Source: Variovorax paradoxus B4
GTDB lineage: Bacteria > Pseudomonadota > Gammaproteobacteria > Burkholderiales > Burkholderiaceae_C
NCBI RefSeq assembly: GCF_000463015.1
Contig: NC_022247.1
Span: forward strand, 5,331,501-5,395,500
Direction of reading: 5' to 3'
Length of the DNA stretch: 64,000 bases
Shown: positions 27,811 through 32,287 of the stretch, piece after piece
How positions within the stretch are numbered: position 1 is the stretch's first letter
How the letters are laid out: the number at the start of each line of letters is the position of its first letter
Notes under the pieces: model-generated
Told to the model about the DNA's origin: nothing
Databases searched by the model: none
The model's input: the letters and a program-made list of their open reading frames with translations, nothing else
Made by a program: the position numbers and the translations under genes

Positions 27811-28146
27811 TTAAGCGCCTTCCCCGACGAGGTTGAGCTCTTGACCGGGCTTCAGCGTCACATAGGCCTTGCGAACGTTGTCGCGGCGGCCGATGGACTT
27901 GCCAAAGCGCTTGGTCTTGCCCTTGGTGTTGAGCACCGACACGCCCTGGACTTCGACCTTGAACATCAGTTCGACAGCGGCCTTGATCTCGGGCTTGGTG
28001 GCGTCTTGCAGCACCTTGAAAGTGACAGCGTTCGACTTCTCGCCGACCATCGTTGCCTTTTCGGACACGATCGGGGCGACCAGCACCGCCATCAGGCGGC
28101 CTTCTTCGAACGTACGTTCAGCGGCGGTAGGGTTCACGCGGCTCAT
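27811..28146 (-). CDS. rplW: 50S ribosomal protein L23
   Basis: A 111-residue L23, which lies at the exit tunnel and anchors trigger factor and [29 protein letters not shown] is the C-terminal signature. The ATG at 28146 overlaps the rplD stop by 4 bp; an internal ATG 18 residues later is an alternative that matches the usual family start ([12 protein letters not shown]). Confidence 0.97.
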
Positions 28147-28763
28147 GCGAACATCTCCTTGAGCTTGTCGACGGCACCCTTGGTGACCAGCACCTTCTTG
28201 TAGTGGACCAGCGACACCGGATCGGCGTAGCGGGGTTCGACCACGAGAATGTTCACCAGATTGCGCGAGGCAAGGTACAGGTTTTCGTCGACTTCTTCGG
28301 CGATCACGAGCACGGACTCGAGATTCATTGCCTTGAAACGGGCTGCCAGCGGCTTCGTCTTGGGCGAGTCCACGGTCAGCGAATCCACCACGGCCAGACG
28401 GCCTTCGCGAGCGAGCTGCGAGAAGATGGCGGCCATGCCGGCGCGGTACATCTTCTTGTTGATCTTCTGCGAGAAGTTTTCGTCAGGCATGTTCGGGAAA
28501 ATCCGGCCACCCCCGCGCCACAGCGGCGAGGACGTCATACCGGCACGGGCGCGGCCCGTTCCCTTTTGCTTGAAAGGCTTCTTGGTCGAGTGCTTGACCT
28601 GCTCGCGGTCCTTCTGGGCGCGCGTGCCTTGGCGGGCGTTGGCCTGGAATGCAACGACGATCTGGTGGACCAGGTCTTCGTTGTAGTCACGGCCGAACAC
28701 GGTTTCGGGGGCGTCGTACTTCGACGCGGCCTGGCCTTGTTCGTTCAGGAGTTCGAGTTGCAT
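28143..28763 (-). CDS. rplD: 50S ribosomal protein L4
   Basis: A 206-residue L4. In E. coli this protein also represses its own operon by binding the S10 leader. [32 protein letters not shown] is the conserved internal loop that reaches the exit tunnel. It overlaps rplC by one base. Confidence 0.98.
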
Positions 28764-29443
28764 TACTTCGCTCCTTCAGCCGCTTGCGGCTTGGCCTTGA
28801 TGGCGGGACGCACGGTGACGAAGCCACCCTTCGAACCCGGGATCGCGCCCTTGATGAGCAACAGTTGACGCGCTTCGTCGATGCGGAAGACGTCGAGGTT
28901 CTGGGTGGTCTTGGTGACATCGCCCAGATGGCCCGTCATGCGCTTGCCGGGGAACACGCGACCAGGGTCTTGTGCCATGCCGATCGAGCCGGGAACGTTG
29001 TGCGAACGGCTGTTGCCGTGCGACGCGCGTTGCGAGCTCATGTTGTGGCGCTTGATGGTGCCGGCGTAGCCCTTGCCGATCGAGGTGCCTTGCACGTCGA
29101 CCTTCTGGCCCACCGAGAACACGCTGCTCGCGGCGATGACGCCACCAGCCTTGTGCTGGCCTGCGGTATCGGCGGTCACGCGGAATTCGCGGATGATTTC
29201 ACCAGCTTCGACACCCGCCTTGGCGAGGTGGCCGGCTTGGGGCTTGGTCACGCGCGATGCCTTGCGCGAACCGAACGTCACTTGCAGTGCGACGTAGCCG
29301 TCGGTCTCTTGCGACTTGATCTGGGTCACACGGTTGTTGGACACATCCACCACCGTGACAGGAACTGCGTCCCCGTCATCGGTGAAGAGACGCATCATCC
29401 CCACCTTGCGGCCCAGCAACCCGAGGGAGTTGCTCAGACTCAT
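28763..29443 (-). CDS. rplC: 50S ribosomal protein L3
   Basis: A 226-residue L3 with [34 protein letters not shown], the family signature around the glutamine that is N5-methylated by PrmB. In most bacteria rplC follows rpsJ directly. Here 2.5 kb with two unrelated genes separates them, and rplC has its own promoter (29590-29619). Confidence 0.98.
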
Positions 29444-29589
29444 TTGTTTTCTCCAAAAATGGAAACTCCCCTCGCCGCTGCCACTTCAATTGGCGACAGC
29501 GTTTGGCCAGTTTCCCGACCTGCGAAAGAAGGTTGATAAATCTCTGCTCTCGCGGCACCCAAATGGACGCACGAAGGGCAGAGCCAGCG

Positions 29590-29619
29590 ATTATAGCCCG
29601 CGATGCGGGCGCAGTGCAA
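29590..29619 (-). promoter_or_regulatory. Near-consensus sigma-70 promoter for the rplC-rpsQ group
   Basis: On the minus strand, TTGCAC (29614-29619) and a perfect TATAAT (29590-29595) are 18 bp apart, about 150 bp upstream of the rplC ATG. It supports an independent transcription start for the S10 group after the inserted genes. The 240 bp non-coding gap is otherwise without a gene; it gives a leader of about 140 nt. Confidence 0.75.
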
Positions 29620-29638
29620 GCAGCATTGCGGAGCGGCC

Positions 29639-29663
29639 CGGAGGGCGCTTGCCCTCCGTTTTT
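29639..29663 (+). terminator. Plus-oriented hairpin with T run, no plus gene upstream
   Basis: A hairpin with 8 bp arms (CGGAGGGC / GCCCTCCG) followed by TTTTT on the plus strand, in the rplC leader gap. In the minus direction the stem is followed by G/C, so it is a poor terminator there. No plus-strand gene precedes it; it may stop antisense transcription. Confidence 0.5.
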
Positions 29664-29687
29664 GCCTGCTTTTTACCTACTTTTGCC

Positions 29688-30224
29688 CTATTTGACGGGC
29701 ATCGTGATGATGCTGTCGCCACCCGGCGTGGACTTCATTTCGCCGCTGGATTTCAAGGCCGGCGCAGCCGTGCCGGTCTGGATGGGGACCGAAACCGCGC
29801 TCGAGGCGCCGCCCTGCTTGATGAACACATTGAGATAGGCCAGCCCCTCGGCCTCGCTCACCACGATGACGGTGGCCGTGGTCCGCTTGCCGGCCGGCAA
29901 CGCGATGGTGCTGCTTCCCTGGAGCGTCAGCCCCTTGTCGGCGCTCAGGCGGACCGTGGCCCCGTCGGCCTCGGTCACGCCGTCGAATTGCAGCACGACA
30001 GGCGTGGCCTGGCCCAGCTGCGGCGTGGCATCGAGGCGATATTCGAGCTTGACGCCAGCGCCGCCGGGCTTCTGCGGCGCCGTGGTCATCGGGGCGGAAT
30101 GCCGCTGCGACGCCGGATGCCTGGCGCCGCGCGGCGCGGACTCGCCGTCTGCCGCGGCCGGCGCCGACAGCGTTGCCAGTGCGAGGCACGCGAGAGCCAT
30201 CATCGAATTCGAACGGATGTTCAT
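29688..30224 (-). CDS. Exported protein of unknown function, partner of the HExxH lipoprotein
   Basis: A 178-residue protein with a signal peptide (about 1-25, cut after APAAA) and a His/Ala-rich linker. The rest alternates Val/Thr/Leu/Gly in the way of a beta-sandwich domain (LEYRLDATPQLGQATPVVLQF). No known motif is seen. It starts 14 bp after the HExxH lipoprotein gene, so they form an operon. It could assist, inhibit or present the protease; that is speculation. Confidence 0.7.
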   Translation of the reverse strand: MNIRSNSMMALACLALATLSAPAAADGESAPRGARHPASQRHSAPMTTAPQKPGGAGVKLEYRLDATPQLGQATPVVLQFDGVTEADGATVRLSADKGLTLQGSSTIALPAGKRTTATVIVVSEAEGLAYLNVFIKQGGASSAVSVPIQTGTAAPALKSSGEMKSTPGGDSIITMPVK

Positions 30225-30238
30225 GGCGGCCTTTCTTG

Positions 30239-31825
30239 CTACTGAATGGAGACGTAGACGTTGAAGCATGCGTCGAGACTGCTGAGGTCCGTCACTGCAA
30301 GAACGTACTCACCAGCCGACAGGCTGACCGTATTGCCGGTCCGGGCAATCAGTCCGCCCCTGAAGATGTCGAAATCGGGATTGGATCCCGGCGGACCGCC
30401 GTTCACGACGATCTGGTAGCTGCGGTTGGCGGGCGCGCTGAAGCGAACGTAGGAGAAGTTGCCGAGCTTGTTGCCCGTGCCGGCGTCGTTGGAGACGCAG
30501 GTCTGGGTCACGGCGCCGCCCACGGTCGCCACCCTGTACATCGGGATCGTGACCGGAATTCCGCCGTCGTTCGTTTCCGCACCGCCGAACGGATCGTTGT
30601 CCGTCGCGTTGATGCTCTGCCCGCCAAGCAAGGCGGCCAGAGCCGGAGCGCTGCCCGGAGCGGTCGCGTTGAAGGCCGCCGAGAAGGGATGGATCGAAGT
30701 GACGGCCGCACCGCTCCTGAACTGGAAGCCGGTCAGCGTGTCGTGGATCGGCTTGAAGCCCACCTGCTGGTTGAGGTTCCAGAAAATCGACTGGATCGAC
30801 GTCTCGCGGTACCAGCCCGGCACGGTTGCCGCACCGGCGGAGAGATCGATGTTGATGCTCTCCCGCGCGGACGCCTGCTGCGCGCCGGCCGAATCGACAT
30901 AGTTCCGGCGCCCCAGCGCGATGCCCGACCAGGCGTTGCCCCAGCCCTCCGAAAAGGCGAGCCGGCGATCGGTGCGCTGGCTCTGACTGTGGTCTCCGCC
31001 CATCGAGTCGTCGCGGCTGAAGGAAGACTGGTAGTAGTGCCCCCATTCGTGAGCGATCACCGAGGTGTCGTATTCATCGGTATCGACGTCTTCCTTGCCC
31101 AGCACGTAGATTTCACGGCCGTTGCTGCCTCTGTCGACGAAGAAGGTGGTGCCGATCTGCCCGGCCGCGATACTGCCCGAGGATGGCGCATTGTTGGGAC
31201 TCCAGAACACGCGCAACACCGGAAACGCCGTTGCAGGCGCAACCGACGCCACTTTCTGCATCGCGGTGTAGACCGTATCGAGTATGGCGAAAGGTGCCGC
31301 CACTCTGTCCTCGGTGTAGCTCGAACCGCCCCAGCCCGACGGTGCGTAAAGGTCGCGCACCAAGGCGACCGCACCGGACGAGAAGGCAGGGCTCTGCATG
31401 GTGTACAGGCCGCCGGAGCGCGTGTTGTCGCGCACCGTCACATCCCAGCTTGCGCCCGGGCCGCTTCGAACCAGCTGGGCCTTGACCCGCACCGCGATCA
31501 TCGTGTTTGCGGGCACGGACACCGCATAGGCGCCGGTGTCGTCGGTGGTTGCCGTGGCCAGTTGCGCAGATGTTGCTGCATTGAGCACCTCCACCATGGC
31601 CCCGCGCACGGGCTTGGGGGCGGCGTTGGCATAGGCCAGGGTGCCGCTCGGATTCGGCACGGCTTCATAGGTGGCCGTGCCGCTCAGGGTCACCGGACCC
31701 GCCACCGGCAGCGGGAAGCCGGCCAGGCCGCCACCACCTCCCCCGCCGCCGCCGCCACCGCAGCCGGCCAGCAACGTCACGGCGACGCATGCCGCGATCC
31801 ATGCAGAAGTGCTCTTGTAGCTCAT
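30239..31825 (-). CDS. Putative zinc metalloprotease lipoprotein with a poly-glycine segment
   Basis: A 528-residue exported protein. A lipobox LLAGC (Cys22) is followed by eleven glycines (23-33), then a beta-rich domain, then a catalytic-type segment: the zinc motif HEWGH (259-263) and, 30 residues further, FSEGWGNAWSG with Glu293. HExxH plus EGW resembles the fungalysin-like gluzincins, so Glu293 would be the third zinc ligand. A second beta-rich region, possibly a prepeptidase C-terminal-like domain, closes it. It is inserted in the ribosomal operon. Confidence 0.7.
   Translation of the reverse strand: MSYKSTSAWIAACVAVTLLAGCGGGGGGGGGGGLAGFPLPVAGPVTLSGTATYEAVPNPSGTLAYANAAPKPVRGAMVEVLNAATSAQLATATTDDTGAYAVSVPANTMIAVRVKAQLVRSGPGASWDVTVRDNTRSGGLYTMQSPAFSSGAVALVRDLYAPSGWGGSSYTEDRVAAPFAILDTVYTAMQKVASVAPATAFPVLRVFWSPNNAPSSGSIAAGQIGTTFFVDRGSNGREIYVLGKEDVDTDEYDTSVIAHEWGHYYQSSFSRDDSMGGDHSQSQRTDRRLAFSEGWGNAWSGIALGRRNYVDSAGAQQASARESINIDLSAGAATVPGWYRETSIQSIFWNLNQQVGFKPIHDTLTGFQFRSGAAVTSIHPFSAAFNATAPGSAPALAALLGGQSINATDNDPFGGAETNDGGIPVTIPMYRVATVGGAVTQTCVSNDAGTGNKLGNFSYVRFSAPANRSYQIVVNGGPPGSNPDFDIFRGGLIARTGNTVSLSAGEYVLAVTDLSSLDACFNVYVSIQ
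31723..31766 (-). repeat. Simple GGN tract encoding poly-glycine
   Basis: A run of glycine codons (GGC/GGT/GGA, one CCC interruption on the plus strand) codes the eleven-glycine stretch just after the lipobox cysteine of the metalloprotease. Tracts like this can slip in replication and would change linker length in steps of one residue without breaking the frame. Confidence 0.6.
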
Positions 31826-31910
31826 AGCTTGTACTGCCCTCGTTTCAGCCCCGGCCCTTGTTGGCCCCGAAGAATACCGGTGCGCGAGGATGCCACAGTC
31901 GGGAGACAAA

Positions 31911-31948
31911 TAAAAAAAGCCCGCTTGCATTTCTGCAAGCGGGCTTTT
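31911..31948 (-). terminator. Terminator after rpsJ
   Basis: A perfect 15 bp stem (AAAAGCCCGCTTGCA against its complement) with a four-base loop, followed on the minus strand by T7 and more T. It lies 25 bp after the rpsJ stop and should end the str operon before the inserted genes. Its symmetry lets it act in both directions. Confidence 0.88.
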
Positions 31949-31972
31949 CAGGAAACGCAGCGCGAGGCCGGT

Positions 31973-32287
31973 TTACTGCAGCTTGATTTCGACGTCCACG
32001 CCGGCCGGCAGGTCGAGCTTCATCAGCGCGTCCACGGTCTTGTCGGTCGGGTCGACGATGTCCATCAGGCGCTGGTGCGTGCGGATCTCGAGCTGGTCGC
32101 GCGAGGTCTTGTTGACGTGCGGCGAACGCAGGATGTCGAAACGCTTCATGCGGGTCGGCAGGGGCACGGGGCCCTTGACGATCGCGCCGGTGCGCTTGGC
32201 GGTATCAACGATTTCGGCCGCCGACTGGTCGATCAGCTTGTAGTCGAACGCCTTCAGGCGGATGCGGATTTTTTGCTTGGTAGCCAT
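31973..32287 (-). CDS. rpsJ: 30S ribosomal protein S10 (NusE)
   Basis: A 104-residue S10. It carries the tail and loop typical of NusE ([15 protein letters not shown] start; [18 protein letters not shown]). It also serves in transcription antitermination. In this genome it ends the str group after tuf and is followed by a strong terminator instead of rplC. Confidence 0.98.

Follow-up and report, generated by a model that had tools for sequence, protein, structure and literature searches.

Two genes between rpsJ and rplC in Variovorax occupy a probable older border with an S10-leader-like hairpin before rplC

Introduction

Why do two genes for putative exported proteins stand between rpsJ and rplC, two ribosomal protein genes that are only 32 nt apart in the E. 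coli annotation? This is the arrangement in Variovorax paradoxus B4, from which a window of 64,000 nucleotides was analyzed (contig NC_022247.1, positions 5,331,501 to 5,395,500). The initial annotation of this DNA held that a highly conserved, tight junction had been opened by unrelated genes and that transcription had afterwards been repaired with a new terminator and a new promoter. Below we trace the inserted pair, the signals on its two sides and the leader of rplC (Table 1) through the genus, the family and the order.

Table 1. Features of the rpsJ-rplC region, in positions of the window
Feature	Position	Strand	Remark
rpsJ (S10), presumed end of the str/tuf unit	31973..32287	-	
Intrinsic terminator 3' of rpsJ	31914..31949	-	Stem of 16 pairs, 4-nt loop, T-rich tail
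LP, 528-aa lipoprotein, HEWGH and conserved downstream Glu, probable zinc metallopeptidase	30239..31825	-	Sub-threshold domain matches only
P2, putative partner protein of 178 aa, exported (by eye), conserved beside LP	29688..30224	-	
Promoter TTGCAC-N18-TATAAT of the rplC unit, predates the insertion	29590..29619	-	Window sequence; empty-site relatives
Structured 5' leader of rplC	29444..29586	-	Start estimated from promoter; fold z-score, outer stem
Conserved leader hairpin CGCTGTCGCCAATTGAAGTGGCAGCG	29476..29501	-	Top genome-wide hit of model R2
Predicted hairpin pairing with the rplC Shine-Dalgarno sequence	29450..29465	-	MFE structure
rplC (L3), first gene of the putative leader-controlled unit	28763..29443	-	
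rplD (L4), proposed feedback regulator	28143..28763	-	Role presumed from E. coli

The inserted pair and its distribution

Two unrelated genes do part rpsJ from rplC, and both are as first described, LP with a lipobox (by eye), a Gly run and the HEWGH motif, followed by P2. An assembly join error, named at the outset as a possible refutation, is ruled out: all 29 genus loci retrieved through their long LP matches (L014, L058-L085) show the identical order rpsJ-LP-P2-rplC. They come from the best-scoring 29 of the 86 other genus genomes with a long LP match (the locus stops before tuf in L061, L073 and L074 and holds only a tuf fragment in L014). The same order was found in 43 of the 48 named loci titled Variovorax.

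The insertion is limited to a clade, an outcome that the initial annotation had named as support: a long LP match occurs in 87 of 101 genus genomes, whereas a sample of 200 genomes of the family has the pair at this place in G000, G122 and G177 alone, besides a likely contaminant contig of G150. G177 belongs to another genus. Six genus genomes (L266-L271) have the junction without the pair, and the occupied junction is a clade-limited derived state with empty-site relatives, as in an inter-operon insertion in the str-S10 cluster. In a single-gene tree the 51 LP copies at the junction form one clade (support 0.962) that also includes six copies from other places; the history of gain and loss proposed below, with its presumed number of events, is likewise read from single-gene trees.

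Both genes are under purifying selection, with dN/dS values against eight relatives of 0.14-0.25 for LP and 0.19-0.40 for P2. His259, Glu260, His263 and Glu293 of LP, which make up the HExxH motif and the downstream Glu, are invariant in 51 aligned proteins; LP is probably a zinc metallopeptidase, with a predicted peptidase activity. Its match to Pfam M61 (E 0.036) is below the family cut-off, and a search by sequence found no relative in the PDB (best E 0.13). A P2 model matched 28 of 31 LP loci (L235-L265), eight of which had served to build it, and 20 of the 23 loci independent of it. P2 may be an exported partner of LP; both proteins appear, by eye, to bear export signals.

That LP and P2 belong to ribosomal regulation and are held at the junction by a need for co-expression with the rplC unit would be consistent with the selection on the pair and its retention there across most of the genus, and also with possible read-through into rplC, a terminator following P2 having been found in only 1 of 60 loci. 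We consider this very unlikely, since the pair adjoins other genes in other genera and also in MAGs from other phyla, the six genus genomes named above keep the junction without it, and both products seem to be exported. In L219 and L220 the gene ahead of LP looks, by eye, like one for a response regulator, and no rpsJ lies within about 4 kb. A mobile-element origin of the pair was also considered and set aside, as a reading by eye of the flanking open reading frames of 15 loci brought up no evident transposase or integrase.

The border before the insertion

Relatives without the pair suggest what the junction was like before the pair arrived. Of 107 junctions in the family that lack the pair, 106 already have an rpsJ-rplC gap of 87-368 nt (median 213), which does not bear out the opening of a tight junction. 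The promoter pattern TTGnnn-N16-18-TATAHT was seen in 66 of the 106 empty family junctions, where shuffling gives 0.32, and a terminator-like hairpin 3' of rpsJ in 52 of 107 family junctions (8.3 when shuffled) and in 51 of 60 LP-bearing loci (5.2 when shuffled), all shuffles being base shuffles that preserve base composition only. About half of the family junctions have no terminator by the criterion used. All six empty genus junctions have, by eye, a GC-rich inverted repeat after rpsJ, a TATAAT and the leader hairpin described below; the T-rich tail of the repeat, also judged by eye, is present in L266-L269 and absent in L270 and L271.

In the window, the terminator reported after rpsJ was recovered on the minus strand; across the 9 kb scanned, terminator-like sites showed no overall enrichment (7 against 9.2 in shuffles). 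The promoter ahead of rplC had been called near-consensus, a description that holds for its -10 box but not for its -35 hexamer, which agrees with TTGACA at only 3 of 6 positions; a promoter scan requiring 4 of 6 in each hexamer reported none in the region.

LP and P2 thus sit between the rpsJ terminator and an older rplC promoter. The flanking terminator and promoter, together with the E. coli gap of 32 nt, could suggest that the insertion broke a tight operon junction whose transcription was later repaired. Against this repair speak the promoter and leader in relatives without the pair, the six empty genus junctions with promoter, leader and terminator-like repeat, and the side of P2, where a terminator before the promoter is no more frequent (1 of 60 loci) than expected (1.4); we regard a repair as highly improbable. 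Judged by sequence signals, the pair has its place at the border of two transcription units and interrupts neither, and it is plausible that the rpsJ and rplC sides give separate transcripts, with ends presumably at these signals.

When rpsJ and rplC separate, the signals stay with their own genes. In G058, where the two genes are 0.9 Mb apart, the hairpin is found beside rplC and a terminator-like repeat (by eye) beside rpsJ. This genome, G198 (L054) and G170 (L057) were chosen for their known odd distances and give no measure of how frequent such splits are.

A structured leader before rplC

A hairpin of the form stem-CAAUYGNN-stem precedes rplC in all 197 family loci (redundant genomes included; 136 distinct cores), 181 of them with at least 4 contiguous pairs in the stem. 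Of 30 loci fetched from the order's other families, 26 have it as well, 14-82 nt upstream of the start of rplC; of the four exceptions, L275 has no recognizable hairpin and three have variants. Two alignments were used, A1 with 99 of 101 distinct leader cores (L150 and L155 omitted; the window in place of L002, the locus of its own genome) and A4 with the 26 order-level loci passing the stem criterion and 25 hand-picked of the 197 family loci. The hairpin covaries, with 179 double-change cells against 67.8 ± 5.9 when shuffled and at most 90 when slid; for its core the values are 71 and 20.7 ± 3.5. The fold of the window leader has a z-score of -4.15, and an outer stem was present in 92 of 121 leaders (permuted mean 65, maximum 77). 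In the genome of the window the leader hairpin is the top match of model R2 (27.1 bits, E 0.05), the next match scoring 23.3 bits.

Counts at class level weigh against the arrangement proposed below. The family-level model R1 found matches at E ≤ 0.001 in only 2 of 184 class genomes, and among 30 class-level loci the hairpin lies within the rpsJ-rplC gap in only 5 and 5' of rpsJ in none. An Rfam 15 search of the leader (window, five relatives and E. coli) gave no relevant match at E ≤ 1; one sub-threshold match to P10 sRNA lay elsewhere.

Proposed arrangement

We hold it to be probable that the str/tuf unit of Burkholderiales has rpsJ as its last gene, that an L4-type leader opens the next unit at rplC, and that a free-standing LP-P2 module entered this border. 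The str/S10 border would fall between rpsJ and rplC, whereas in E. coli it precedes rpsJ. The tuf unit would stop with rpsJ, in many cases at a terminator, and rplC would open a new one with its own promoter and structured leader, probably under L4-type feedback, since the leader hairpin matches one of the E. coli S10 leader. Into the short space between terminator and promoter the LP-P2 cassette would have come in an ancestor of Variovorax and its close relatives; because neither ribosomal unit was damaged, it may have persisted, being lost several times and in places copied or moved elsewhere.

On balance we lean towards a wider claim: that the Burkholderiales (former Betaproteobacteria) have between rpsJ and rplC a previously unlisted L4-type leader, the hairpin that precedes rpsJ in E. 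coli, so that control by L4 begins one gene further on and leaves rpsJ outside it, and that the places open to foreign genes in this operon cluster, among the most conserved in bacteria, are set by where this shifting boundary of L4 feedback lies. What looked like a breach of a highly conserved operon order would then become a testable rule, by which the border between str and S10 goes with the leader and is the site of insertions and breaks. If the order-wide rplC leader responds to L4, two large bacterial groups would have one feedback element in front of different first genes, and S10 control as known from E. coli would not hold for Burkholderiales, in which rpsJ expression would go together with that of tuf. 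To our knowledge, L4 leaders have been thought to be limited to Gammaproteobacteria.

Comparison with known systems

The closest known counterpart of the rplC leader is the E. coli S10 leader, an L4-responsive attenuator, in which the matching hairpin is the one that we take to be stem E. Held out of R2, this leader was nevertheless found by the model with 17.1 bits and in the same register (E = 0.14 over the 82 kb searched), and the conserved hairpin agrees with it in loop and register; R1 gave no match to it at E ≤ 1. The E. coli loop CAATCGTA occurs in matching register in 10 of 26 order-level rplC leaders, 7 of these 10 hairpins also sharing the U-A closing pair. The window loop CAATTGAA differs from that of E. 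coli in two bases, the flanking structure differs, with an outer stem in the CAATTG-type leaders, and the hairpin precedes rpsJ in E. coli but rplC in Burkholderiales. Since the leader lies between rpsJ and rplC, not 5' of rpsJ, we call it S10-leader-like and not an S10 leader. rplD is the second gene 3' of it, and the leader therefore stands 5' of the L4-encoding unit.

By analogy the Burkholderiales leader would be of L4 type. It is possible, though we think it the less probable case, that the hairpin serves another ligand such as L3 or acts on translation or RNA stability, its likeness to E. coli being convergent: it lies close to the rplC start in the 26 order-level loci, L3 is the adjacent product, and the Shine-Dalgarno sequence in the window is predicted to be paired. 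A loop mimicking 23S rRNA was considered as well, but CAATTG and CAATCG are absent from the sense strand of the single 23S copy searched, and rRNA mimicry thus lends L4 no backing, which also suits another ligand. Speaking for L4 are the E. coli loop and register in 10 of the 26 hairpins, the closing pair in 7, and the L4 response of the S10 leader reported in PMC10578931.

As a structured, covarying 5' leader of a ribosomal protein unit, the element resembles those described by Eckert and Weinberg, 2020 (PMC7247131) and those of Rfam 15. Table 1 of the former lists 20 new leaders; L4 appears there for Archaeoglobi alone, and an rplC leader from beta-proteobacteria is not among them. Neither such a leader nor an LP-P2 insertion was found in a partial search of the literature that included parts of PMC2965389 and PMC2704228.

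Gene insertions between the concatenated operons of the rpoBC-str-S10-spc-alpha cluster have been described, for example bfd-bfr between str and S10 in Gammaproteobacteria (PMC8046335). There, as here, the space between two operons has taken up a few genes unrelated to them, and in some descendants, here L219 and L220, the operons part further. Our case differs in that the inserted pair codes for an exported lipoprotein and its putative partner, and in that the border lies after rpsJ, because promoter and leader stand before rplC. Insertions between the str and S10 operons are thus of a known kind, and the place of the leader is the new part.

Gene order at the rpsJ-rplC junction

In the genome containing the window (7.15 Mb, two contigs) the genes of a 528-residue HEWGH lipoprotein (LP) and of a 178-residue exported protein (P2) lie between rpsJ and rplC. 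The order rpsJ-LP-P2-rplC, reported in the initial annotation, was borne out in 29/29 genus loci (L058-L085, 28 loci, and L014), taken from the 29 highest-scoring of the 86 other genomes whose LP match is long. At 29639-29658 on the plus strand, in the interval separating P2 from the rplC promoter, lies a GC-rich stem-loop that ends in a T-rich tail and points in the direction opposite to rpsJ, LP, P2 and rplC.

Features around the inserted pair, in the order tuf-rpsJ-terminator-LP-P2-promoter-rplC-rplD
Feature	Position	Strand	Placement
tuf		minus	upstream of rpsJ, first in order
rpsJ	31973-32287	minus	
Terminator	31949-31914	minus	after rpsJ
LP	30239-31825	minus	
P2	29688-30224	minus	
Promoter	29619-29590	minus	before rplC
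rplC	28763-29443	minus	
rplD		minus	downstream of rplC

The junction without the pair

The initial annotation had also proposed that the two genes opened a highly conserved junction and that transcription was then repaired with a new terminator and a new promoter. The family comparison does not support this. Among 109 same-family regions downstream of rpsJ, hand-chosen from the matches of an rpsJ search, two (L057, L178) did not have rplC downstream, and in 106 of 107 junctions the gap, without the pair, already measured 87-368 nt (median 213); the annotated gap in E. coli is 32 nt. Of the 106 short gaps, 66 contained the promoter pattern TTGnnn-N16-18-TATAHT (0.32 in shuffled sequence), and a terminator-like hairpin lay 3' of rpsJ in 52 of the 107 junctions (8.3 shuffled). 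In LP-bearing loci with distinct rpsJ-LP gaps this hairpin followed rpsJ in 51/60 (vs 5.2). A terminator-like hairpin was found in the interval between P2 and the promoter in just 1/60 (1.4 expected), a pattern in the sequence that would make transcriptional read-through from LP-P2 into rplC possible.

The sole exception among the 107 junctions, L054 from another genus, which was fetched for its already-seen odd rpsJ-rplC distance, has a gap of 2301 nt with a different gene inserted, an insertion that arose at this border independently of LP-P2. Its antisense ORF has an HEFGHLVHH-like motif (M3-type peptidase, by eye) and is flanked by a terminator-like hairpin after rpsJ and, on the rplC side, by a promoter and the leader hairpin.

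About 0.9 Mb separates rpsJ from rplC in one genome (G058; L055, L056), where the leader hairpin remains beside rplC and a terminator-like repeat (by eye) beside rpsJ; in a second genome of that genus (G170, L057) the distance is about 80 kb on one contig.

A conserved leader of rplC

In all 197 loci from the genus and the family (a redundant set with 136 distinct cores) the loop CAATYG lies upstream of rplC, with a contiguous stem of at least 4 pairs in 181. Covariation in 99 aligned leaders amounted to 179 double-change cells versus 67.8 ± 5.9 in shuffled and at most 90 in slid alignments. With its outer stem the window's leader folds with z = −4.15, and a 7-bp upstream partner for the 3' arm exists in 92 of 121 distinct CAATTG-type sequences (arms permuted: mean 65, maximum 77).

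At the order level rplC was detected in 77/80 genomes. In the best 30 fetched loci the hairpin was present in 26, 14-82 nt before rplC, three had variants of it (by eye), and in one (L275) it was not found before rplC. The core alignment A4 (51 sequences) had 71 double-change cells versus 20.7 ± 3.5. Its order-level rows were chosen for the stem; the loop-closing pair (columns 10-19), which lay outside that selection, is standard in 49/49 distinct rows and changed on both sides in 16.

Three results with R1, the family-level model of the hairpin, count against a wider reach: it reached just 15/30 order-level loci, gave no E. coli match at E ≤ 1, and over 184 class genomes found two at E ≤ 0.001. 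R2, the core model made from A4 with E. coli left out, gave a match upstream of rpsJ in E. coli (17.1 bits; E 0.14 in the 82 kb searched), and among 30 class-level loci outside the order it matched between rpsJ and rplC in four; in the home genome its best match was the window's leader (E 0.05), followed by seven weaker ones (next E 0.4). A simpler hairpin pattern was found in the gap in 5/30 class-level loci and before rpsJ in 0/30. Since these five (L312, L313, L315, L321, L334) lie outside Burkholderiales, the hairpin's place in the gap may predate the order.

The inserted pair

LP has a lipobox and a Gly run, and its HExxH motif plus Glu (H259, E260, H263, E293) is invariant in 51 aligned proteins. 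Against Pfam and NCBIfam it gave sub-threshold matches only, and a solved structure with a sequence match was not found. The closest named matches are from Variovorax (identity up to 92%); further relatives occur in genomes and MAGs titled Sulfurovum, Endozoicomonas, Marinicaulis, Planctomycetota and others. A P2 model found a P2-like ORF, in most cases starting near the LP stop, in 28 of 31 loci (L235-L265; weakest L247, E 0.004); 8 of the 28 were among those used for building it. Away from the junction the neighbours of the pair are various genes (15 loci, by eye). LP-P2 is thus an independent two-gene module, in which LP is probably a metallopeptidase of the envelope and P2 its partner.

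Distribution and history

LP was matched at E ≤ 0.001 in 95/101 genus genomes. Counted from the match listing, 87 have a long match (E ≤ 1e-136) and 14 a weak one or none; six of the 14 have an assembled rplC, and all six junctions are empty with gaps of 236-274 nt, while in eight rplC was unmatched. Additional long LP matches lie elsewhere in three of the genomes, on G223:C41, G218:C24 and G212:C1. Among named loci titled Variovorax, 43/48 have the order rpsJ-LP-P2-rplC. Two (L219, Variovorax sp. J22P271; L220, V. ginsengisoli) have LP-P2-rplC without rpsJ, which was not found within about 4 kb of LP, and a response-regulator-like gene (named by eye) upstream of LP; in three (L227, L237, L246) LP adjoins neither rpsJ nor rplC. 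The LP copy of L227 (V. paradoxus MEDvA23), away from the junction, is accompanied by P2.

In a 200-genome family sample the pair occupies the junction in the window's own genome (G000), in G122 and in G177, and in G150 on a single contig; in G140, G066, G054, G064 and G169 it is located elsewhere. The G150 contig (C98; L039, L216), from a MAG titled Paracidovorax wautersii, bears a second rpsJ and rplC with LP-P2. Because its record L216 groups inside Variovorax in the tree and another contig bears a normal junction, it is probably Variovorax contamination. In the G122 locus (L038, 10143-10373) the tuf match beside rpsJ is limited to residues 183-259, possibly a collapsed assembly repeat.

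In a tree of 88 LP proteins all 51 copies with rplC in the locus share one clade (support 0.962), which also includes six non-junction copies; the rplC tree (93 sequences) requires seven presence/absence changes. Most simply, the pair entered once, was lost several times and was relocated in some cases, although single-gene trees do not fix the number of events.

Comparison with known leaders and operon insertions

In Rfam 15, searched at E ≤ 1 with the window, five relatives and E. coli, a matching leader was not found, and among the 20 new leaders of Eckert and Weinberg (2020; PMC7247131) an rplC leader of beta-proteobacteria is absent. The E. coli S10 leader, as described in a 2023 paper (PMC10578931), precedes rpsJ, and the binding of L4, which rplD encodes, leads to transcription termination; stem D is required for L4 and stem E is the attenuator. 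At 45-72 nt before E. coli rpsJ the sequence reads CCCAT-CAATCGTA-ATGGG, then CTGAGGAG, then a T-rich stretch. We take this hairpin to be stem E. Of the 26 order-level hairpins, 10 have the loop CAATCGTA, seven of them with the U-A closing pair of E. coli; the window's loop CAATTGAA departs from it at two bases. We infer that in Burkholderiales the L4-controlled unit begins at rplC.

According to Brandis (2021; PMC8046335), the entry of a few genes into the space between two operons of the cluster, such as bfd-bfr between str and S10, is a frequent first step to separation. The Variovorax event is, by that description, an inter-operon insertion of this kind, and differs in where the border lies.
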